IMG/VR virus record: IMGVR_UViG_3300043395_003072 | Span: 1 to 64,000 of that record | Source of the DNA: a virus | Direction: 5' to 3' (one strand) | Length of the DNA: 64,000 bases | In this document: one piece after another, positions 5,704 to 56,708 of the stretch | Layout of the letters: each line of letters begins with the position of its first letter | How positions within the stretch are numbered: position 1 is the stretch's first letter | Translations under genes and position numbers: made by a program | The notes under the pieces: model-generated | The model's database searches: none | Told to the model about the DNA's origin: nothing | Seen by the model: only the letters and a program-made list of their open reading frames with translations

Positions 5704-6133
5704 TCAATGCTTTGAGTATGATAATGAGTCCGGTGACTATCTGCTTCCAACTGAGATTGATATCTATGTAGTTGCTAAGCATCGAGATGACTCTCCTCTA
5801 CTCGAAGGAGAGTTGTATCGTTTAGTAAATATTCTAGATGCTTCTACTAGTACTGTTGTGCTTTTTCAAAGCCAGTGTGGTCAGTATAAATTCTGGGAGG
5901 ATTTATTTAACTTTACCAGGAAATATGATTTGGCGGCTTGTCCTCAAAACATTCCTGCAATGCTTTGGATTCTCAAGAAGAAGAAAATCAATTATACAAT
6001 TACCTCTGTTATGAATCCTGATAGTGGATTAGTTCAGTACTCTATTAAGAATGATACTACTGTCATTACAGGTTCAGAGCTTTATATGCTCTTGTTTGAT
6101 TTCATTGATAGTAAGGTTAACTTTCTATGCTAA
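5693..6133 (+). CDS. hypothetical protein, 146 residues
   Basis: A mixed alpha/beta protein that overlaps the preceding membrane-protein gene by 11 bases and the next gene (purA-like) by 7. The ATG follows TAGGAG. I do not recognise the family. Its place immediately before the purine genes makes it a candidate partner, but nothing in the sequence shows this. Confidence 0.7.
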   Translation: MMIDQCFEYDNESGDYLLPTEIDIYVVAKHRDDSPLLEGELYRLVNILDASTSTVVLFQSQCGQYKFWEDLFNFTRKYDLAACPQNIPAMLWILKKKKINYTITSVMNPDSGLVQYSIKNDTTVITGSELYMLLFDFIDSKVNFLC

Positions 6134-7227
6134 CTAATAATGTGTCCGCCGTTTTTGGGTTGCAGTATGGCGACGAAGGTAAAGGCAAGATTGCTTCTGC
6201 TATGGCAGCAAGTAAACGCTTTAGCTTAGTTGCCCGTTATAATGGTGGCCCAAATGCGGGACACACTATTATGATTGGCGATAAAGTTTGTAAAACTAGA
6301 CAGGTACCTTGTGGAGCGCTACACAAGGTTAAGAGCTATATTGGTCCAGGCACTGTACTGGATCTAAAGAAGCTCGCTGTTGAAATTAAAACCTTAAATG
6401 ATACCCTCGGCTTTGATATTGAACAGTATCTAATTATTGATCCAAGAGTCCCTATTATAGAAGAAAAACATATCCAAGAAGATATTGAGAAGTACTCTGT
6501 AAATGGTACTGTATCTACTGGAAGTGGTATCGCTCCAGCTTATAAAGAGTTCTATGGTCGAACTGCTACTCTTGCAGGAGACTTAGAGTTACCTTATGAA
6601 GTTAGAGAAATGCATCGTACTGAGCATCTATTACTAGAAGGTGCACAGGGTATTTGGCTTGATCCTATTCATGGCAACTACCCAAATTGCACTAGTAGTC
6701 ATTGCTTACCTAGTTTTGCATCAGCAACATTTGGCTTTTCACCTTTAGCTTTTAAAGAGATAATTGGTGTCGCCAAGGTTTACGAAACTAGAAGTGGTGC
6801 AGATGATTATTTCTATTGGCCCAAGTCATTTAAAGGGGAGCCTTATCGCCCCAACGATGACCAGCTAAATAAGATTAAAAATCAACTAGAACAGCTACAA
6901 GTATTAGGCAAGGAATTTGGCGTAAATACAGGACGTAAGCGTGCATGTAAGCCACTAGATGTTACTGCACTATGCAGAGCAATTAGAACTTCAGGCACTA
7001 CTCATACAGTAATTCAAAAGCTTGATATTCTAAGAGAAGCAAACTTCTGGTTTGTTTACTTAGATGGTGAGCTTGTAAAGCTAGATAATGAGCAAGAGTT
7101 TTGCAAGATAGTTGATATGTCTATTAAGACTTATAGCAACTGCAAAAAGATTACCTGGTTATCTTCACCTTATACTTTTTATGATGAAGGAGATTTTGTA
7201 GATGATTTCCCGTTACACAATCCCTGA
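6127..7227 (+). CDS. purA: adenylosuccinate synthetase (PurA family)
   Basis: This enzyme joins IMP and aspartate using GTP to make adenylosuccinate, the first step from IMP to AMP. Visible family motifs are the N-terminal nucleotide loop GDEGKGK (residues 15-21), 'NGGPNAGHT' at about 39-47, 'GPGTVLD', and 'LLEGAQGIWLD' in the middle. At 366 residues it is shorter than typical cellular enzymes (about 430). The Asp of GDEGKGK, the catalytic base in PurA, is present. As I recall, phage PurZ enzymes, which act on dGMP to make 2-aminoadenine, replace that residue, so ordinary IMP use is more likely; this is inference. The gene overlaps the purB-like gene by 26 bases. Confidence 0.9.
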   Translation: MLTNNVSAVFGLQYGDEGKGKIASAMAASKRFSLVARYNGGPNAGHTIMIGDKVCKTRQVPCGALHKVKSYIGPGTVLDLKKLAVEIKTLNDTLGFDIEQYLIIDPRVPIIEEKHIQEDIEKYSVNGTVSTGSGIAPAYKEFYGRTATLAGDLELPYEVREMHRTEHLLLEGAQGIWLDPIHGNYPNCTSSHCLPSFASATFGFSPLAFKEIIGVAKVYETRSGADDYFYWPKSFKGEPYRPNDDQLNKIKNQLEQLQVLGKEFGVNTGRKRACKPLDVTALCRAIRTSGTTHTVIQKLDILREANFWFVYLDGELVKLDNEQEFCKIVDMSIKTYSNCKKITWLSSPYTFYDEGDFVDDFPLHNP

Positions 7228-8323
7228 TATGCAAGCTATCTGGTCTGATGAGAATCGCTTCTTCAAGTATTCAGTATTTCATCATGCTTATTTAACTGAG
7301 CTTCTAAAGCGTCCAGTTATTTTAACAAAGCTTGATCCTGATTATGAGAAGATCAAACAATTTGAGTCTAAAACTCATCATGAGATGCAAGCATCTTTGC
7401 TTGAGTTTGAAACTCGTATTAACCCTGATGATCTAGAAGCTAAGGCTAATCTTCATAAAAACCTAACATCTTCTGATGTAATCGACACTGTACTTGCGTC
7501 TACTATCAAAGAAGCTAGTAATCTTCTAAAAACAAAGATTGCTGATTGTTTTGATGTTATACAAAAGCTAGTAGATGATACTAATGGCATTTATACTATT
7601 GGAAGAACTCATGGAAAGCATGCAATTCCAATGAAAATGTCCAGCAGGTTCAAAAGAGAGCTACATGATATTCATCTAGTAGCTACTAGTCTAAGAGAAA
7701 ACTGTGATATTCCAGGAAAGCTAAGCGGTCCAGTAGGAGAGCTAGGCTATGATCATAAACTAATTAATGGCTTAAATGCTCAATTTAATCTAGTTAATTA
7801 CATGACTAATGGTTTCTCTAATCAATGTGTATCAAGGCATTATCATTCTAAAATTATCTATGATATTGCACTGCTTGGTACTCTAATTGAAAGACTAGTT
7901 ACTAATATCAGACTTCTATCTATGAACGAAATTGATGAGCTCAGCGAAGGCTTCTCTGAAGATCAAGCTGGCTCCTCTTCAATGCCGCACAAAAAAAACC
8001 CTATCCGTTGTGAAAACCTAGTAGGTATCGCACGCTTGCTGCGATCCTACGTTACCCCCTCCCTAGAAAATGTGCCACTATGGCTCGAGCGAGATATGAC
8101 TCATTCGAGTGTAGAGCGTGTTATATTGCCGGATTCATTTAACTTGATTTACTATATGTTTACCAAGTTGGAAGAGATCCTAAGTACTTTATCTATTAAT
8201 AAAACTTCTATTGAGAGAAATCTTCGCAATTACGAAGGTAGCTCATACAATGAGCTTAATAATTCAAAGCTACCTAGAAGCGAAGCTTATAATCTAATCA
8301 AAGATAAGTATCATGCAACTTAA
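7202..8323 (+). CDS. purB: adenylosuccinate lyase (PurB family)
   Basis: This enzyme splits adenylosuccinate into AMP and fumarate. The fumarase/aspartase superfamily signature 'GSSSMPHKKNP' is at about residues 258-268, preceded by 'SGPVGELG' and the 'TSSDVIDT' and 'GRTHGKHA' motifs, with 'ERDMTHSSVERVILPD' after the signature. At 373 residues it is shorter than cellular PurB (about 430-470), mainly lacking part of the C-terminal domain. Overlap with the purA-like gene shows that the two are co-translated. Together they make AMP from IMP. A phage-encoded purB is uncommon, since phages usually rely on the host enzyme. Confidence 0.9.
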   Translation: MISRYTIPDMQAIWSDENRFFKYSVFHHAYLTELLKRPVILTKLDPDYEKIKQFESKTHHEMQASLLEFETRINPDDLEAKANLHKNLTSSDVIDTVLASTIKEASNLLKTKIADCFDVIQKLVDDTNGIYTIGRTHGKHAIPMKMSSRFKRELHDIHLVATSLRENCDIPGKLSGPVGELGYDHKLINGLNAQFNLVNYMTNGFSNQCVSRHYHSKIIYDIALLGTLIERLVTNIRLLSMNEIDELSEGFSEDQAGSSSMPHKKNPIRCENLVGIARLLRSYVTPSLENVPLWLERDMTHSSVERVILPDSFNLIYYMFTKLEEILSTLSINKTSIERNLRNYEGSSYNELNNSKLPRSEAYNLIKDKYHAT

Positions 8324-8492
8324 AGATATCATCTCTAAAGAGCGATACAAAGAGCGCATGCAGACTTGTCTTAAATGTGAATACTACAATCCTACTCTGA
8401 AGCAGTGCAAAGAGTGTGGATGCTTCTTAATTCTTAAAGCCGCCTTATCTGTAACCAAATGTCCGAAAGGAAAGTGGAAAGATGAAGATTGA
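8313..8492 (+). CDS. small zinc-binding protein, DUF6171-like
   Basis: A 59-residue protein with CLKC, then CKECGC, then CP, the cysteine layout of a family of short phage and plasmid zinc proteins (DUF6171) that typically end in 'CP-x-GKW', as here. Its start lies inside the end of purB, and its stop overlaps the ATG of the next gene. The function is unknown. Confidence 0.65.
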   Translation: MQLKDIISKERYKERMQTCLKCEYYNPTLKQCKECGCFLILKAALSVTKCPKGKWKDED

Positions 8493-8703
8493 TATTAAAG
8501 ATTTAGATATTGACCTCAAGGATGATTACTACTACTGGGCTTATAAAAATTATCAAGGTGCTACTATCATTCACCTTTATCCAAAAGAAGTTGCTAAGAA
8601 AGCTTTAATTAATCTTAATAAGTCTATTTGGAAGCCTCTTGTTGAAACTAAGCACGATCCTGATCAACTCGAGCTTTTTACAGAGGAACAGCTAAATGGA
8701 TAA
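8482..8703 (+). CDS. small hypothetical protein
   Basis: A 73-residue protein with AAAGGAAAG before the ATG. It starts with an alternating charged segment rich in Asp, Ile and Lys. The family is not recognised. It overlaps its neighbours by 11 and 8 bases, consistent with one operon running from the purine genes. Confidence 0.6.
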   Translation: MKIDIKDLDIDLKDDYYYWAYKNYQGATIIHLYPKEVAKKALINLNKSIWKPLVETKHDPDQLELFTEEQLNG

Positions 8704-8956
8704 CTTCATTGCTTTTGTAATATTTATCAGCATAATTGTAGGAGTCTTGCTTTATGATAGTAATGCAGAAATTACTATCAAGATATGCAAAACTTCAGAT
8801 GGAAACGTAGTCTTTGCTGGAGAGAAAATTGATTACGATTTTCTTGTAAGGAAAGATCTAATATCTAAAGGATTAGTTTGCTCTGAAAGGCTTTACAAGA
8901 AGCAAGATTGGTATACTTTAAAAAACATAACAAAGCGCTCAATTAATATCAAATAA
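8696..8956 (+). CDS. small membrane-anchored protein
   Basis: An 86-residue protein with one hydrophobic segment at the N-terminus (about residues 4-19, 'FIAFVIFISIIVGVLL'), followed by a polar, slightly basic domain with two cysteines. The likely topology is a single N-terminal anchor. The family is not recognised. Confidence 0.6.
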   Translation: MDNFIAFVIFISIIVGVLLYDSNAEITIKICKTSDGNVVFAGEKIDYDFLVRKDLISKGLVCSERLYKKQDWYTLKNITKRSINIK

Positions 8957-8968
8957 GGAATACAAATC

Positions 8969-9451
8969 ATGCAATGGTTTAAAGCTGATGGCGAACATAT
9001 ATTCTGGCAGGATATCTGCAATTCAATTACAGAAATGATCAGATCCGGAGCTGAGCATCAAATTGTAATAGGTTCAGATAGCCAGCCTAATTATAATAAA
9101 TCTATGTTCGTTGTAGCTTTATGCGTTATATCAGACTTTCCAGGTATGGAGAGAAGATATTACTATGCAAAAGTCAAACATGATAAGTATATGCCTCTTA
9201 GAGAACGCATATTAAAAGAAGCTAATCTTTCAATTGAAACTGCTTGCTTGCTAAGAGAGCGTTCTGATCTTGTAAATCAACAAGCTAATATTCAAATTCA
9301 TTTAGATGTTAGCTCTGAAGATTCAAAGAATAAGACAAGTAAAATGTCTTCAAGTATTATTAATCTAGTAAAGGCTTATAACTTTGAAGATGTTCAAATC
9401 AAACCTAATAGTTGGGCTGCTTCTTACATAGCAGACAAACACTCTAAATAA
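8969..9451 (+). CDS. RNase H-like nuclease-fold protein (DUF458/YkuK-like)
   Basis: A 160-residue protein. 'IVIGSDSQ' near residue 34, 'MPLRERILKEANLSIETA' in the middle, 'IHLDVSSED' and 'IKPNSWAASYIADKHS' at the end match the conserved blocks of the DUF458 (RNaseH_like, YkuK) family. The acidic residues fit an RNase H fold, but activity in this family is not well established. AAGGAATAC precedes the ATG. A role in RNA or primer processing is inference. Confidence 0.75.
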   Translation: MQWFKADGEHIFWQDICNSITEMIRSGAEHQIVIGSDSQPNYNKSMFVVALCVISDFPGMERRYYYAKVKHDKYMPLRERILKEANLSIETACLLRERSDLVNQQANIQIHLDVSSEDSKNKTSKMSSSIINLVKAYNFEDVQIKPNSWAASYIADKHSK

Positions 9452-9462
9452 AGGATAAGTAT

Positions 9463-9696
9463 ATGTATCATATTGTAATTAAGAACCCTTATCGAAATTT
9501 TAGCAGTACTATTAATATTCTAAATGAAGATGCTTTGAAATTTCATTTAAACTTTATTAATCGCAATCCCTATTCTTGGAACTTTGATGAAGATCCAGAT
9601 TATTATATTGCCACTGATAATCTAAATACTGATGAAACAGTAATTAAGCTTCACAAGAGCTTTCCTCGTAATCTCCTCAAGGAGCTTTTTGCTTGA
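9463..9696 (+). CDS. small hypothetical protein
   Basis: A 77-residue protein with AAAGGATAAG before the ATG. It is aromatic- and Asn-rich, and the family is not recognised. Its stop is in a TTGA overlap with the deaminase gene, so the two are translationally coupled. Confidence 0.6.
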   Translation: MYHIVIKNPYRNFSSTINILNEDALKFHLNFINRNPYSWNFDEDPDYYIATDNLNTDETVIKLHKSFPRNLLKELFA

Positions 9697-10061
9697 AGCT
9701 ACCTCGCGGTGTACTTGAATTAGCTGTATCTCAAGCGCTCAAGAGTACTATGCTTCATCAACACGGAGCTGTTGTATGGAAAAATGGTACTATTCTTAGC
9801 GCAGGGTATAACTATCATAAATCTCCTCCTAGCGATAAAGATCAAAGGAGACTCTCTATTCATGGAGAGAAAGATGCTTTGGCTGGCTTGCGTGGAGATC
9901 AAATTTATGGCGCATCAATTCTAGCTGTTAGAGTTAGAAAGGATGGCTCCGTAAGTTCAGGTGCACCATGTAAAGGTTGCTACAAGCTTTTAAAACGTAA
10001 AGGTATCGCTCGTGCCTATTGGTTCGACGAGCATGGACAACTCAACTGCACTTATATGTAA
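9693..10061 (+). CDS. cytidine/deoxycytidylate deaminase-fold protein
   Basis: A 122-residue protein starting at TTG with AAGGAG upstream. It has the zinc-site motifs of the CDA superfamily: 'HGEKDAL' (usual HAE, with the catalytic Glu kept) and 'PCKGC' (PCxxC) about 40 residues later. The substrate could be a free cytidine nucleotide, a nucleic acid or another purine or pyrimidine; the HGE variant and short length keep it apart from the typical dCMP deaminase at 34962. Confidence 0.75.
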   Translation: MKLPRGVLELAVSQALKSTMLHQHGAVVWKNGTILSAGYNYHKSPPSDKDQRRLSIHGEKDALAGLRGDQIYGASILAVRVRKDGSVSSGAPCKGCYKLLKRKGIARAYWFDEHGQLNCTYM

Positions 10062-10070
10062 GGAAACAAA

Positions 10071-10256
10071 ATGAATGATCCTAACAATACTAATCGAGAT
10101 GATATTGAAGATGATGAGACCCTAGACGCCTTTAACCGAGATTGGGACCGAGAGGTTGCAAGAGAGGAAGGTATGCTAGGTGGTTTAGATGCTTATAATG
10201 ATTATATGGGTAATTATTATGAGCCAGAATATGATGGTTACGACCAAGATTATTAA
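10071..10256 (+). CDS. acidic small hypothetical protein
   Basis: A 61-residue, extremely acidic protein rich in Asp, Asn and Tyr, with AAGGAAAC before the ATG. It is probably disordered. Such proteins in phages sometimes mimic DNA or bind host enzymes, but nothing specific is visible here. It is the last gene before the tRNA cluster. Confidence 0.6.
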   Translation: MNDPNNTNRDDIEDDETLDAFNRDWDREVAREEGMLGGLDAYNDYMGNYYEPEYDGYDQDY

Positions 10257-10410: not shown

Positions 10411-10485
10411 GCTTCCTTAGCTCAATGGTAGAGCGAGGTGTGTGTTGTAACCCCTGGGTTCTAGGTTCGATTCCTAGAGGAAGCA
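10411..10485 (+). tRNA. tRNA-Asn-like, with enlarged anticodon arm
   Basis: The acceptor GCTTCCT/AGGAAGC, D arm and T stem CTAGG/CCTAG match the tRNA-Asn at 10822, so this is a paralogue. The anticodon arm, however, is three bases longer than normal. The best fold is a six-pair stem with one T-C mismatch (AGGTGT/ACCCCT) and an eight-base loop GTGTTGTA. Read as GTT it would be Asn; a shifted reading gives TGT (Thr). It may decode in an unusual way, act as a frameshift suppressor, or be a decaying pseudo-tRNA. Confidence 0.6.
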
Positions 10486-36843: not shown

Positions 36844-37108
36844 AGAATCGTGGGATGAGGTATCTAATAAAGTCTATGATATCTTACATCTACTTCCATG
36901 GAATAAGGATCATGTAGACTTCTTAACTTATATTACTAAAGAATATTCTAAAGGTCTTGATGACTTTTATAAAGAGAATATCTTTATCTGTCCCCGCTGT
37001 GAAGAAAAATCTATTTTAGGAAGAATGTGTCCTGCTCATAAGCATGCAGTGTGCATTGCTCCTAAAGTAGAACTAGACTATTGTGATGACGAAGAAGATG
37101 AGTTGTGA
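36800..37108 (+). CDS. small zinc-ribbon protein
   Basis: A 102-residue protein with CPRC...CPAHKHAVC, a probable zinc-binding knuckle, and an acidic end. It overlaps recA by 44 bases and the polymerase gene by 11. The family is not recognised. Confidence 0.6.
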   Translation: MTAQIVKTSHTIRFKESWDEVSNKVYDILHLLPWNKDHVDFLTYITKEYSKGLDDFYKENIFICPRCEEKSILGRMCPAHKHAVCIAPKVELDYCDDEEDEL

Positions 37109-38405
37109 ACATAATCATGAAGTGGCTTGTAATCATTGCGAGAAGCAATTTGTACACTTGCATGTGCATACAGAATACTCGCTTCTTGATGGAATTAATA
37201 AGGTAGATAGGCTCCCTAAGCATGTAAAAGCTATGAATCAACCTGCTGTTAGTCAAACAGATCATGGTACGATTTCTGGTTGTTACAAGTTTTACAAGGA
37301 GGCTAAAAAAGCTGGCGTTAAACCAATCATAGGCATGGAAGCTTATTATACGGTTGGTGATAGAGCTGCAAGAGAGCCAGATGAAATGGGTAAGAACTAT
37401 TATCATCTTATTCTCTTAGCTCAAAATAACGTCGGGCTACATAACCTTATTAAGCTATCATCTTACTCCTATACAGAAGGTATGTATCATAAACCTCGCA
37501 TTGATGATGAGTTGATTGCTCAATACTCAGAAGGCTTAATTGCTACTACTACTTGTCTTGGCAGTAGAGCTTCTCAGTTGATTCTAAACGGAGAAGTTAA
37601 AGCCGCAGAGAAATTGATACATCATCACAAGGCTATGTTCAAAGACAGGTTCCTTGTCGAGCTACAACCTCATGTAGATCCTGAACAGATGCTAGTAAAC
37701 AAGACCCTGCTTCAGATCGCTACTTCTAATGATCTTCCTATGGTTATTACTGGTGACTGCCATTACCAGCATGACCACGATAAGATGCACCATGAAGCTG
37801 CGCTTTGTATGCAAACTAAAACTAAACTATCCGATGAGAAGAGATTCTCTTTTGGAGAGCTAGAAGTACATGTATCTGATCATGATTGGATGTGGGCTAA
37901 AGCAGAAGCTCAAGGACTTCCTTATGATGTAATATCTAATACTGTATCTGTTGCTAATATGATAGATAGTGATTCTTACTTCATGGATCGAATGAATCGC
38001 TATCCTAAATATCAAGAGATTCCAGATAACCTTAGATCATTTGAGCTATTAGAAATAGAAGCTCAACATGGTTTATGGGCTAGGTTTAATAGTATGCCGC
38101 CTCAAGAATACAGAGACAGGCTTGCTCATGAACTCAAAGCTATTAAGAAGATGGGCTTTTCAGATTACATGCTAATCGTTGCTCAATTTATGAATGGCGC
38201 AAGAGATTATGGAGTGATGCATGGCCCTGGTCGAGGTTCCGCAGCTGGCAGTCTAGTTGCCTATGCTCTAAGAATTACAGAAGTCGATCCTATTAAATAC
38301 AACTTGGTGTTCTCTCGCTTTCTAAATGAAGGTCGCGGAGCTACACCCTTAATCTTTAACCATGAGATGGCTGCTATTGCAGACAGCCACCGACTACCTT
38401 TTTAA
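37098..38405 (+). CDS. dnaE: DNA polymerase III alpha (DnaE), fragment 1: PHP domain and start of palm
   Basis: 435 residues from ATG 37098 (37086 or GTG 37083 are alternatives). The PHP domain begins 'HLHVHTEYSLLDG' (from residue 19), followed by 'QTDHGTISG'. Near the end 'GRGSAAGSLVAYALRITEVDP' and 'FSRFLNEGRG' are the finger/palm-entry motifs. The DnaE sequence then stops exactly before the catalytic PDIDID and is replaced by 21 unrelated residues and a stop. The continuation is encoded at 38657. No intein block is visible at this break. Confidence 0.88.
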   Translation: MSCEHNHEVACNHCEKQFVHLHVHTEYSLLDGINKVDRLPKHVKAMNQPAVSQTDHGTISGCYKFYKEAKKAGVKPIIGMEAYYTVGDRAAREPDEMGKNYYHLILLAQNNVGLHNLIKLSSYSYTEGMYHKPRIDDELIAQYSEGLIATTTCLGSRASQLILNGEVKAAEKLIHHHKAMFKDRFLVELQPHVDPEQMLVNKTLLQIATSNDLPMVITGDCHYQHDHDKMHHEAALCMQTKTKLSDEKRFSFGELEVHVSDHDWMWAKAEAQGLPYDVISNTVSVANMIDSDSYFMDRMNRYPKYQEIPDNLRSFELLEIEAQHGLWARFNSMPPQEYRDRLAHELKAIKKMGFSDYMLIVAQFMNGARDYGVMHGPGRGSAAGSLVAYALRITEVDPIKYNLVFSRFLNEGRGATPLIFNHEMAAIADSHRLPF

Positions 38406-38416
38406 GGATAATTACA

Positions 38417-38587
38417 ATGACTACTATTTATGCGATTCAGAATAAAACAAACAATAACTTTGTTCCTGTAAACGGCACTATGTTTTTCTCAAAGCGTAGT
38501 GATGCTCGTGCAGCTCGTGCAAACCTTCAGGGAAATGATTATCGAATTGTTACTACTACTGTTACCGATTGGAAGACAGCTAAGTAA
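38417..38587 (+). CDS. 56-residue protein inserted between DnaE fragments 1 and 2
   Basis: A basic, Asn/Thr-rich protein with TTAAGGATAATTAC before the ATG, so it is translated independently. It is the only frame in the 250-base gap between polymerase fragments. No homing-endonuclease motif is visible. The family is not recognised. Confidence 0.6.
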   Translation: MTTIYAIQNKTNNNFVPVNGTMFFSKRSDARAARANLQGNDYRIVTTTVTDWKTAK

Positions 38588-38593
38588 CTAACA

Positions 38594-38610
38594 CCCACCT
38601 TTACAGTGGG
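38594..38610 (+). terminator. weak hairpin after the inserted gene
   Basis: CCCAC-CTTTACA-GTGGG without a T-run. It may stabilise the message end or regulate DnaE fragment 2, which starts 47 bases later. Termination is doubtful. Confidence 0.3.
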
Positions 38611-38656
38611 CGCATCTCTTTAACATCCATCTCTTATAGGTTATGATGCTTCTCAT

Positions 38657-40252
38657 ATGCTCTCCAAAGATATATGTTTAAAATATATAGATACTAAAGT
38701 TATTGAAGAAAGATTAGATCAAATAGATCCTGACTTTCTAGAATATGAAGTAAAGATGATATCTCGAGAAGATATTAATCGAATACATAATGTACTAGTA
38801 GTTCAAGATTTTAAATTTGAAGAAAATCCTCATAACAGTATCTTGCTTTATATTACTGGGTTAACCGATCAATTTGATTTTGAAGCTATGAGATCGAATA
38901 TGATTGGTGGTGCACCCCCGGATATCGATATAGATCACGATGCGCTAGAGCGTGAGAAAGCTATTCAATGGTGTATTGATTATTGGGGGCGAGAAAAAGT
39001 CGCCAATATTATTACTCATGGAACTTTTAAACCTAAAAGTCTAGCTAGATCTTATTATCGTATTACTGAGAAGGATCAAGAAGATTTAACAGAACTTCTT
39101 AAAATGATTCCGCCTCCTAAGTATGGCAAGGAAGCCTCTCTCTCAGAAATACTAGAACAAAACCCAAATCTATCCGAAGAAGAGAAGTATAAAACCTTTC
39201 TTGAATTTGCAGATAGAATAGAAGACATGGTTGCAAACTTTGGTATTCATGCGGCTGGCGTAATTATTTCTGACAAAGAAATCTCAGATACTATTCCTAT
39301 CTGGAAGAATTCTAAAGCAGATAGAATTACTCAGTTTGATAAAGACGAATGCGAAGAGCTTGGGTTGCTCAAGTTCGACTTCCTCGGTATCGATACTATC
39401 TCTATTATCAAAGAGTGCGTTTCGCTTATCAAGAGAGACAAGGGTGTAGAAATACAGCCTTACTCTATCCCAGATGGCGATACTCTAGCTTATGAGAAAC
39501 TAAACGAAGGGCATCTTGTTGGTGTGTTTCAAATGGAGACCTCTGGTACTGCCAAGAGGTTAATCATGGATATTCAACCAACTAGCATTGAGGACCTTAG
39601 TGCTATTAGTGCCATTAATCGCCCTGGACCGTTACAAGCTAATCTTGATAAAACCTATATAGCTAACAAACTAAACAAAGCTCCACCAGATACGCTTCCT
39701 GCTCAAGTAGCTGAGATACTCAAAGCTTCATACTGGACCTTGATATATCAGGAGCAGATTATGTCTTTGTTTACTGAGCTTGCAGGGTTTACACCTCAAG
39801 AGGCAGATGAAGTACGTCGAGCTATGGGTAAGAAAAAGCTAGAAGTATTAGAGCCTTACAAAGATAAGTTTATTATAAAGTCCCAAGAAATTGGAGGCTT
39901 GCTCGCTGAATATGCTCAATCTTTATGGTCTGATATATTAGGTTTTGCAGATTACTGTTTAGCTGGAAATACTCAAGTTAAGATTAAACAAACTCCTTAT
40001 GTAAAAACTATTGCAGATATAGTAGATGACCAAATATCACCTACTGTTTTCTCTTATAATGGCTCTGAATTTATAAGACAGAGGGTTGAACAATGGCATT
40101 ATAAGGGAGTAAAACAAACTTACACTTATCTTTGCGAAAACGGAGCGTCAGTTACTTGCACTCCAGATCATAAATTCCTTACAATAGATAATAAATTTAA
40201 ATCTATTGATGAAATTTATACTAATAACTTAGAGATATACACCATAGAATAA
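38657..40252 (+). CDS. dnaE: DnaE fragment 2: catalytic palm/fingers fused to N-half of a split intein
   Basis: A 531-residue protein. Residues 1-85 match nothing I know. DnaE resumes at 86 with APPDIDIDHD (catalytic Asp pair), then 'LLKFDFLGID' (third Asp), 'AINRPGPLQ' and 'LGFADY'. At Cys434 a 98-residue IntN begins: 'CLAGNTQVKI' (block A) and 'GASVTCTPDHKFLT' (block B, TxxH), ending in a stop. This is the same DnaE site (FA-D/E-Y|C-FNK) as the cyanobacterial DnaE split intein. The rest is at 51776. Confidence 0.9.
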   Translation: MLSKDICLKYIDTKVIEERLDQIDPDFLEYEVKMISREDINRIHNVLVVQDFKFEENPHNSILLYITGLTDQFDFEAMRSNMIGGAPPDIDIDHDALEREKAIQWCIDYWGREKVANIITHGTFKPKSLARSYYRITEKDQEDLTELLKMIPPPKYGKEASLSEILEQNPNLSEEEKYKTFLEFADRIEDMVANFGIHAAGVIISDKEISDTIPIWKNSKADRITQFDKDECEELGLLKFDFLGIDTISIIKECVSLIKRDKGVEIQPYSIPDGDTLAYEKLNEGHLVGVFQMETSGTAKRLIMDIQPTSIEDLSAISAINRPGPLQANLDKTYIANKLNKAPPDTLPAQVAEILKASYWTLIYQEQIMSLFTELAGFTPQEADEVRRAMGKKKLEVLEPYKDKFIIKSQEIGGLLAEYAQSLWSDILGFADYCLAGNTQVKIKQTPYVKTIADIVDDQISPTVFSYNGSEFIRQRVEQWHYKGVKQTYTYLCENGASVTCTPDHKFLTIDNKFKSIDEIYTNNLEIYTIE

Positions 40253-51775: not shown

Positions 51776-53038
51776 ATGAAAATTGTCTCCAAGCAAGATG
51801 CTGGAGAGCAAGTAGTTTACGATATTGGAGTGGCTAGCTTAGAAGGTCATAACAATTTCTTACTAAACAATGGGCTCGTAGCATCTAACTGTTTTAACAA
51901 AGCGCATAGTGTTAGTTACTCTGTTCTAACTTACATTACTGCATACCTAAAGGCTCACTACCCTGTTGAGTTTTTCACCTCTCTGATGTCTACTCGATCA
52001 AAGACTTTGCAACCTAAAACCTGGGCTATTAAAGCTCCAGAATATATCAAGGAAGCAAAACACTTTGGAGTAGATATTAATCCTCCATCTGTAAATCAAA
52101 GTAGCTTTGAGTTTACTGTTATAGGCTCAGAGATTTACTTTGGACTTAATGCTATTAGGGATGTAGGGCAAACAGCTGCAAGAGCTATTATTGCAGCTAG
52201 AGGCTCTATAGCTTTTAAAGATATTAAAGACTTTCTTAATAGAGTTAATCTTCAGAAGGTAAACACTAAGGTCTTTGAGGCTCTTGTTAAAGCAGGTGCT
52301 TTTGACAAGATGGGTTATACTCGATCAGAGCTTCTAGAAAATACTTCTGCTATTTATTCTTATATAAAAGATATAGAAGATTATAAACAGCGAGAAATTG
52401 ATTTTGTTGAAAGAGAAAATCACAATCTTAGAGTTGTTCCCTTAATAGAGCGTAGAGATTTTCTTAGAAATGAAATCAAGAAGATAGAGAATAGAATAGC
52501 TAAAGCTAAAGATAAGCCTGAAGATGCTGCCACACTTCTAGCTTATCAAGAAGAACTTCAACCTCTAGAAGATCAAGCACTTAAACGTTTACCTGCTTTG
52601 CAAAAGTTTGAGCTTCCAGTATTTCCTGAACTTCAAAGGAATAAACTTGTGCCTTTGAATCTTAAAGAAATTATGGAGCAAGCTCAATATATAGGTTGCT
52701 ATATTGGTGGTCATCCACTAGATCTTATTTCTATTGAGAAAGATGATCTGGATACTCTAGAAGAAGATACGTATGCAACTGTAGCCGGTGTTGTTCTATC
52801 TACTAAAACTGTAAAAACAAGATCAGGCAAGATGATGGCTTTCTTTGAAATAGATGATTCTACTAGCAGTGCAGAGATTGTAGTATTTCCGCAGCTCTGG
52901 TCTAAGGTAGAAGCTCTAGAAGTAAAAGAGACTGATATTTTAAAGTGCCGAGTTAAAGTTGAATCTACAGATCCAGATATAAAACTAATTCTTCAATCAA
53001 TAGAAAGATTTAAAATACAAAATGAAATGGACACCTGA
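51776..53038 (+). CDS. dnaE: DnaE fragment 3: split-intein C-half fused to the polymerase C-terminus
   Basis: A 420-residue protein with its own AAAGGAAAT ribosome site. Residues 1-38 are an IntC: 'VVYDIGVASLEGHNNFLLNNGLVASN' with terminal Asn, then Cys39 starting the C-extein 'CFNKAHSVSYSVLTYITAYLKAHYPVEF'. Both the sequence and insertion point match the DnaE intein of cyanobacteria. After trans-splicing to fragment 2 the C-extein supplies the HhH region ('SIAFKDIKDFLNRVN') and an OB-fold ('ATVAGVVLSTKTVKTRSGKMMAFFEIDD'). Confidence 0.92.
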   Translation: MKIVSKQDAGEQVVYDIGVASLEGHNNFLLNNGLVASNCFNKAHSVSYSVLTYITAYLKAHYPVEFFTSLMSTRSKTLQPKTWAIKAPEYIKEAKHFGVDINPPSVNQSSFEFTVIGSEIYFGLNAIRDVGQTAARAIIAARGSIAFKDIKDFLNRVNLQKVNTKVFEALVKAGAFDKMGYTRSELLENTSAIYSYIKDIEDYKQREIDFVERENHNLRVVPLIERRDFLRNEIKKIENRIAKAKDKPEDAATLLAYQEELQPLEDQALKRLPALQKFELPVFPELQRNKLVPLNLKEIMEQAQYIGCYIGGHPLDLISIEKDDLDTLEEDTYATVAGVVLSTKTVKTRSGKMMAFFEIDDSTSSAEIVVFPQLWSKVEALEVKETDILKCRVKVESTDPDIKLILQSIERFKIQNEMDT

Positions 53039-55452: not shown

Positions 55453-55684
55453 CTTCTATGTTGAAGCTAATGTAAATAACAAGCATATAGATATCTATGG
55501 GCCGTACTCGAAAGAGGCGGCTTTTGATTTTATAGTTAAAGATTTACTTTCTTGTTTAAAACAAAAACATGCATCTTCATTCTTTTTATCATCATTACTT
55601 TATTATTTAGATGAAAATCAAAATAAGATTGTATTTTTAAAAAGAAACCTATCTAGGATAAATAATGAGAAGCCACAACGATAA
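55439..55684 (+). CDS. small hypothetical protein
   Basis: An 81-residue protein. The ATG at 55439 is chosen over an upstream in-frame one that would lie in the Cas4-like gene's cysteine region. The family is not recognised. It overlaps the next gene by 20 bases. Confidence 0.55.
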   Translation: MSPNSFYVEANVNNKHIDIYGPYSKEAAFDFIVKDLLSCLKQKHASSFFLSSLLYYLDENQNKIVFLKRNLSRINNEKPQR

Positions 55685-56708
55685 AATATTTTCTTTAGAA
55701 GACCCTACTGCTCCTAAGCTTACGACAGATGATGTACTTCTAGTACCTACTATTGGAAAGCTACAGTCCCGATCTCAAGCAAAAGTAGACTCTACATTTA
55801 TTTATTCAAGTCCAATGGATGTAGTTACTGGGTTAGATCTATGTAAAGCTATGCTTAACGAAAGACAAGCTCCAGTACTTTGTAGGTTCCTACCAGAACC
55901 TGAACGAAGATATGCCTTGTCTTTATATCATGCTAATTCTAACTTCTGGTATTCTGTTGGTTTAAATAAAGAAGATTATGATTTCTTAGATTTTTACTTC
56001 ACTCAAAAAGGTAAGAATTCAAAAGTAAATGTATCTGTAGATATAGCCCATGGTGCAACTGAACAAGCTTATAAGCTTTATAAACTGTACTCAGAAGCCC
56101 CTTGGTGTAGAGCTATTATGTCCGGAACAGTAGCTACTCCAGAAGCTGCTGAATATGTGAGTAATTACTGCTCTCATATACGCGTTGGAATAGGTCCAGG
56201 AAGCGCTTGTTCTACAAGGATAGTCACTGGTTGCGGGTATCCTAATCTCGCTGCTGTATACGAAATTAGAGCTACATTAGGAAGTGATCATTATATTATT
56301 GCTGATGGTGGCATTAGATCTTCAGGAGATATCATTAAATACTTAGCGGCAGGTGCTGATGGCGTAATGCTTGGTAGTATGCTCTCTAGTATTGATGAGT
56401 CTCATGGATGGTTAGAACCATTTATTGGCAAACCATATAAGTATTATAGAGGTCAAGCTTCTAAGCAGTTTCAAATTGAACGTCGAGGGAAGGTTAATGG
56501 TGCGCCCGAAGGTGTTCAATCAAATAAAAAGATTTATAAATCAGGTAGCTTCTCTGATTTTAATAATCAAACAAAAGCATCAATTGCTTCGGCAATTTCG
56601 TATCTAGGTATTAACTGTATACAGGATTTAAATCCTGACAATGTTAAATTTGTTCGAATAACTACTTCTGGCTTACAAGAAAGCCACCCCCATATTTTAT
56701 TAAAATAA
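55665..56708 (+). CDS. IMP dehydrogenase/GMP reductase family enzyme, likely GMP reductase
   Basis: A 347-residue TIM-barrel enzyme. The loop 'GIGPGSACSTRIVTGCGYP' (catalytic Cys near residue 183) and the 'ADGGIRSSGDIIKYLAAGADGVMLGSM' phosphate-binding block are clear. It has no CBS insert and is exactly the size of typical GMP reductases. A GMP reductase would make IMP from GMP, feeding PurA/PurB; an IMPDH would do the reverse step. The 'YRGQASKQFQ...APEGVQ' flap region is kept. Family certain, direction uncertain. Confidence 0.85.
   Translation: MRSHNDKIFSLEDPTAPKLTTDDVLLVPTIGKLQSRSQAKVDSTFIYSSPMDVVTGLDLCKAMLNERQAPVLCRFLPEPERRYALSLYHANSNFWYSVGLNKEDYDFLDFYFTQKGKNSKVNVSVDIAHGATEQAYKLYKLYSEAPWCRAIMSGTVATPEAAEYVSNYCSHIRVGIGPGSACSTRIVTGCGYPNLAAVYEIRATLGSDHYIIADGGIRSSGDIIKYLAAGADGVMLGSMLSSIDESHGWLEPFIGKPYKYYRGQASKQFQIERRGKVNGAPEGVQSNKKIYKSGSFSDFNNQTKASIASAISYLGINCIQDLNPDNVKFVRITTSGLQESHPHILLK

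Follow-up and report, generated by a model that had tools for sequence, protein, structure and literature searches.

The window analysed here comprises 64,000 nucleotides, positions 1 to 64,000 of the 158,462-base IMG/VR virus record IMGVR_UViG_3300043395_003072, and carries the gene for a C-family DNA polymerase, dnaE, in three plus-strand open reading frames (ORFs): f1 (37083–38405), f2 (38657–40252), and f3 (51776–53038). The match to the PHROG 405 profile passes flush across the pieces, with columns 21–443 in f1, 442–790 in f2, and 790–1078 in the third piece (51890–53011). A profile search of the whole record returned no further match to PHROG 405 and no intact dnaE copy, and no PolA or PolB match was found in the record. 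The subject of this analysis is the break between f1 and f2, which lies immediately before the catalytic motif A.

The first gene, f1, encodes a 440-residue N-terminal DnaE subunit containing the PHP nuclease domain and the first half of the palm (Pfam PHP, 6e-48; DNA_pol3_alpha columns 3–102). The GPGRGSAAGSL loop (38223–38255) is present in f1 only and, in the alignment, is mostly invariant in 20 f1 sequences. The protein then reads ...FLNEGRG, followed by a C-terminal tail of 21 residues, ATPLIFNHEMAAIADSHRLPF (38340–38402), and a TAA stop at 38403; the tail consists of an in-register copy of motif A without the catalytic Asp residues (ATPLIF...) and a short helix. A small gene of 56 residues and unknown function (38417–38587, plus strand), preceded by the plausible ribosome-binding site TAAGGA, occupies the gap. 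The 531-residue catalytic subunit f2 begins with an 85-residue conserved helical segment, here called the head (38657–38911), and continues with the catalytic strand, thumb, second palm half, fingers, and an N-terminal intein half (IntN), with Pfam matches to DNA_pol3_alpha (columns 100–260), DNA_pol3_finger, and Intein_splicing. Motif A, PDIDID (38918–38935), carries the live catalytic Asp pair equivalent to Escherichia coli D401 and D403, and the third catalytic Asp is residue D241 of f2 (39377–39379), which we take, by way of the KFDFLG motif, to be the equivalent of E. coli D555. All the hallmarks of a C-family polymerase (PHP domain, GPGRGS loop, PDxDxD motif A, and third Asp) occur in conserved form, the first two in f1 and the last two in f2. 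The original prediction, that f1 runs to FLNEGRG, that f2 resumes at APPDIDID, and that a stop and an independent 56-residue gene separate them, agrees with these coordinates and profile columns.

The second break in the gene is of another kind. IntN (39956–40249, CLAGNTQV...) is the record's only match to PF14890 (Intein_splicing, 1.8e-5), and the 38-residue C-terminal half, IntC (51776–51889), ends in VASN and is followed by CFNKAH at the start of the C-terminal DnaE piece (51890–53038). By these sequence features, the f2/f3 break is an ordinary canonical split intein, distinct from the f1/f2 break, and f3 is expected to be joined onto f2 by it. Its position is the DnaE site used in cyanobacteria. 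No comparable features were detected between f1 and f2, where no intein profile matched; the original claim that intein features such as block A are absent there is confirmed.

Alignment of f1 and f2 sequences across the family shows that the two new ends differ from intact polymerases in a reciprocal manner. After GR, f1 sequences follow the pattern x-[AS]-x-P-[LKIMV]-[ILH]-[FLS], in which the Pro at R+4, found in 25/25 split sequences, occupies the position of the PDID Pro in intact relatives. At the two catalytic Asp positions the tail never contains Asp (Leu in 19, Lys in 2, Ile in 2, Met in 1, and Val in 1 at the first; Phe in 23, Leu in 1, and Ser in 1 at the second; n = 25), a change from PDID to PLIF with both Asp gone in 25/25, whereas the intact sister sequence L086 reads SRVSPPDIDSD. 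The f2 sequences read [GND]G[SA][PA]PDIDID after the head, and D89 and D91 of motif A and D241 are invariant in all 23 examined, as are head residues R19, E31, N57, N60, S61, I62, and L64. GPGRGS is absent from the f2 head in all family members. Because the tail has lost its Asp residues and the head is without GPGRGS, the loop is confined to f1 and the catalytic residues D89, D91, and D241 are confined to f2. The 21 tail residues and 85 head residues had originally been described as foreign and unknown, respectively; the lengths hold, but the labels do not, as both segments are conserved across the family and the tail is in register with motif A. It had gone unnoticed that this is an old break common to many relatives and that, at the level of sequence, each extension looks like a dead copy of the adjacent half of the active site, in reciprocal fashion.

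To follow the break across relatives, IMG/VR was scanned with each of the two proteins and with alignments of f1 and of the head. The same f1/f2 break was found in more than 20 other non-redundant virus contigs, mostly at 40–75% protein identity, and no DNA-level relative was found among cultured phages. A PHROG 405 search of 24 virus records identified a single f2 in each, one f1 in 21, and an intact dnaE in none (0/24); the 3 records in which f1 is missing are probably fragments. Profile matches in these records begin at column ~441–445 for f2 and extend to ~440–455 for f1. Sequencing or assembly error, which raw reads were to have revealed, is ruled out by the occurrence of the identical break in many independent contigs. 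Several relatives (L041, L044, L045, L048, and L050) have an f2 of 802–869 residues that is unbroken by an intein, and the f1/f2 break is therefore more widespread than the intein break.

In the f1 phylogenetic tree, the 24 split sequences other than L110 form one clade (support 100/99) with the intact L086 adjoining (99/96), and the f2 tree agrees, with a split clade at 100/100 and L086 as its sister at 97/90. L110 is a distant second split dnaE (f1 at 5998–7332, f2 at 7689–10115) whose tail is of the kind seen in the main clade and whose head is still close to the palm segment. It falls outside the main split clade in both trees, although a single split clade for f1 was just not rejected by the approximately unbiased (AU) test (p 0.056), and, going by its sequence, it may have been split independently at the same spot. 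It is possible but doubtful that two overlapping copies, each degenerate where the other is intact, came to form one active site on two occasions, in L110 and, separately, in the large clade to which the window belongs.

The distance from the f1 stop to the f2 start ranges from 251 bp in the window up to 4020 bp, with differing content. Minus-strand ORFs lie in the gap of L014, L015, L042, L044, L047, L049, L050, and L051 and look like real genes because an LGRPA motif is common to them. Homologues of the 56-residue gene are found at the same gap in the close relatives L001, L002, and L003, and similar ORFs in L005, L009, and L034; searches of Pfam and PHROGs with the ORF from the window gap gave no significant family match and no endonuclease match. 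In the close clade, the tail and the head had pooled pN/pS values of 0.30 and 0.47, respectively, compared with 0.22 for the f1 body and 0.27 for the f2 body. Judged by these substitution ratios, the f1 body, the tail, and the head are under strong purifying selection, and the two new ends are constrained as protein, not as RNA. A Cys/His-rich motif (CxHxH-like) was also observed at the f1 N terminus in one subclade (37083–37150 in the window) and at the extreme C terminus of the f1 tail in another (L014–L017, L044, L047, and L049).

The origin of the head was examined by comparison with the palm segment that precedes motif A in intact polymerases. The first two tests, which used shallow profiles, were negative. 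The head of L110 still reads EYQAYKKEIGAIEIAEMEDYFLEILEKR...NSMVAYLIGI...GGTIPDIDIDF and scored 13–17 bits against profiles of intact sequences, more than any shuffle. A profile comparison with the main-clade head, excluding L110, scored 21.7, a value reached in 1 of 150 column permutations, and aligned SILLYITGLTD over SLVxYLLxIT where expected. Suggestive but not proof, these comparisons make it probable that the head arose from the pre-motif-A palm segment as a decayed copy without GPGRGS. No convincing match to a known Pfam domain was obtained for the head, and no match to the head itself was found in cultured phages or, by pattern scan, in a collection of bacterial and archaeal genomes. 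Matches from tblastn to phages that seemed to reach into the head were gapped extensions from motif A and were not used as proof.

Structure models were obtained for f1 and f2 as single subunits. The AlphaFold model of f1 aligns to residues 1–398 of E. coli Pol III alpha (Z 32) and the model of f2 to residues ~401–754 (Z 16), and as modelled the two together tile Pol III alpha without a gap. Given large root mean square deviations (8–12 Å) and a low predicted template modelling score for f2 (0.43), the tiling alone was used and the detail of domain placement was set aside. The f1 tail appears as a loose region followed by a helix at residues 427–435, of modest confidence. The f2 head is modelled as helices, with a predicted local distance difference test (pLDDT) score of ~85 for residues 1–70 and low values for the linker at 71–88; fold-search matches for f2 barely reach it.

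Non-covalent assembly is the most likely explanation of the f1/f2 break because the essential motifs are divided, both halves and their new ends are conserved, and splicing elements are absent. Very probably, f1 and f2 form a fixed, inherited two-polypeptide C-family polymerase that is never spliced and whose active site forms when the two associate non-covalently, the first of the two alternatives originally offered. In such an enzyme, f1 would supply the PHP nuclease and the first palm half with the GPGRGS loop, whereas f2, once joined to f3 by the intein, would supply the Asp pair of motif A, the third Asp, the thumb, the fingers, and the remainder, so that the active site would be completed only on association. 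The halves overlap at the cut, where f1 ends in a motif A strand without Asp and f2 starts with a head without GPGRGS, and the tail and head now probably serve as the interface that keeps the halves in register. We infer the physical association of f1 and f2, their activity, and the clamp role of the tail and head from sequence. A likely origin would be a tandem or partial duplication, or the insertion of a mobile element with overlap, followed by reciprocal loss. In Bacillus phage G, a GIY-YIG endonuclease gene lies within an interruption of dnaE at LP|DIDID; the motif A spot is thus a target of mobile elements, which makes the latter a plausible origin.

Three points weigh against this interpretation. 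Association and activity are predictions from conservation, and the models cover each subunit by itself. The derivation of the head from the palm segment has weak scores, with the two first tests negative and those with deeper profiles suggestive. Finally, the phage, as known from metagenomic contigs alone, may have its genome copied by the host Pol III.

Among the alternatives, the one that survives best, although improbable, is that f2 is a self-sufficient polymerase without a PHP domain, in which the head stands in for the first palm half. On this view, f1 would be a PHP nuclease in its own right or an accessory subunit, and its palm half would be vestigial. DnaE proteins without PHP appear to exist in Pbunavirus phages (matches from f1 residue 341), and the head may copy the right palm segment, with N60-S61 kept invariant. 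However, the palm half of f1 is not decaying, as GPGRGS is invariant in 20 sequences and pN/pS of the body is as low as given above, whereas the head is without this loop and, in the model, sits on a low-confidence linker and is not aligned with the Pol III alpha palm.

It is very unlikely that the break is an RNA intron, in cis or in trans, the removal of which would give one chain. Relatives commonly carry group I introns in this gene (L009, L047, L049, and L053), and the interruption of phage G dnaE lies at nearly the same codons. As a positive control, Rfam group I introns were detected at RRAMG|KK (L047, L049, and L053) and INRPG (L009), in each case with flush exons; the f1/f2 break is instead flanked by conserved extra residues, 21 in the tail and 85 in the head. 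Even at E 10, no intron family matched the gap of the window, and none matched those f1/f2 gaps of relatives that were searched with the models that detect the true introns; the gap also varies in length and content as described, including minus-strand genes. A full-length spliced mRNA, which the original prediction held would make the break an intron, is strongly disfavoured from sequence by the lack of an intron in the searched gaps, by protein-level constraint up to the f1 stop and from the new f2 start, and by the minus-strand genes of the gap. To judge by reading frame, group I introns also interrupt dnaE of L007 and L042, and some of the introns carry LAGLIDADG-like ORFs.

There is even less to recommend an atypical split intein joining f1 to f2. 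In its favour, the same gene has a canonical split intein at f2/f3, and the invariant N60-S61 of the head is preceded by His or Tyr. Against this, GR is followed by Gly or Ala (in a few cases Ser) and not by a nucleophile-led block A or a CxxGDT-like block, polymerase sequence does not resume after N60-S61 but ~27 residues later at motif A, and the head, predicted to be helical, lies at a break without an intein profile match. Similarly far-fetched is the idea that one of the two genes is a pseudogene in decay and that the phage uses the host Pol III: broken genes are often inactive and a host polymerase could in principle copy the phage, but the halves and their new ends are under purifying selection over large divergence, the catalytic residues are conserved, and the whole clade retains the split.

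Two further features were observed elsewhere in the window. Genes resembling PurA, PurB, and IMPDH/GMP reductase, named by eye and forming a purine-supply set with a possible link to base modification, lie at 6127–8323 and 55665–56708, and ARAGORN reported a tRNA whose anticodon has four bases (gttg) at 10411–10485, within the tRNA cluster.

If the two-polypeptide reading is correct, f1 and f2 represent a natural and long-lived case in which an essential active site is shared by two chains, and would test how enzymes survive cuts at their most conserved spot. The split sets the PHP nuclease subunit apart from the catalytic subunit, and the tail and head pair may serve as a polymerase complementation tag. 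One gene family would then display three outcomes of interruption, with group I introns and a split intein alongside a lasting division into two proteins.

Several known systems resemble parts of this arrangement. In Aeromonas phage Aeh1, ribonucleotide reductase is split by mobE into NrdA-a and NrdA-b and is reported to be fully functional, and the gp43A and gp43B proteins of phage 25 purify together and show polymerase activity (PMC2988022). As with NrdA, the break in the window runs through a part of a phage enzyme that is critical for its function and leaves two genes without a recognisable intron or intein, but the enzyme is a different one, and no homing endonuclease gene was recognised in the window gap, whereas the Aeh1 break contains one; the f1/f2 break is, moreover, common to a large clade, and its ends look like reciprocal dead copies. 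The gp43A/gp43B pair of Aeromonas phages 25 and 44RR is likewise a replicative DNA polymerase in two genes, but it belongs to the B family, whereas the window polymerase is of the C family, with a cut that separates the GPGRGS loop from the catalytic Asp pair. The cyanobacterial DnaE split intein concerns the same gene, and the phage f2/f3 intein precedes CFNK, but the f1/f2 break is inteinless and lies before motif A. The actinobacteriophages Papyrus, Madi, and Anakin also make DnaE from two or three adjacent genes; their cut, however, is upstream, near the boundary of PHP and palm and outside the palm itself, and the second protein holds both a GPGRGS-like loop and motif A. In Bacillus phage G (gp329/gp330/gp331), the interruption at LP|DIDID is within a few codons of the f1/f2 break, but the residues past LP are unlike the conserved tail, the next piece is headless, and the arrangement looks like an intron or endonuclease insertion. 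The GPGRG loop of the phage G dnaE (L061, 3965–7937) also contains an intein-like insert. The break may occur in a further phage group, as PHROG 7513 (461 residues) ends and PHROG 12219 starts (PDIDID) near the same point, although PHROG 12219 seems to be without the head. No report was found in the literature, with most subscription journals outside the scope of the search, of a DnaE split without an intein, or of a C-family replicase in which a cut without one parts the GPGRGS loop from the catalytic Asp. The f1/f2 polymerase most likely works like the known split phage enzymes that assemble non-covalently. What sets it apart from these is its enzyme family, a cut placed inside the palm, the overlap of reciprocal dead copies, and a split intein in the same gene.
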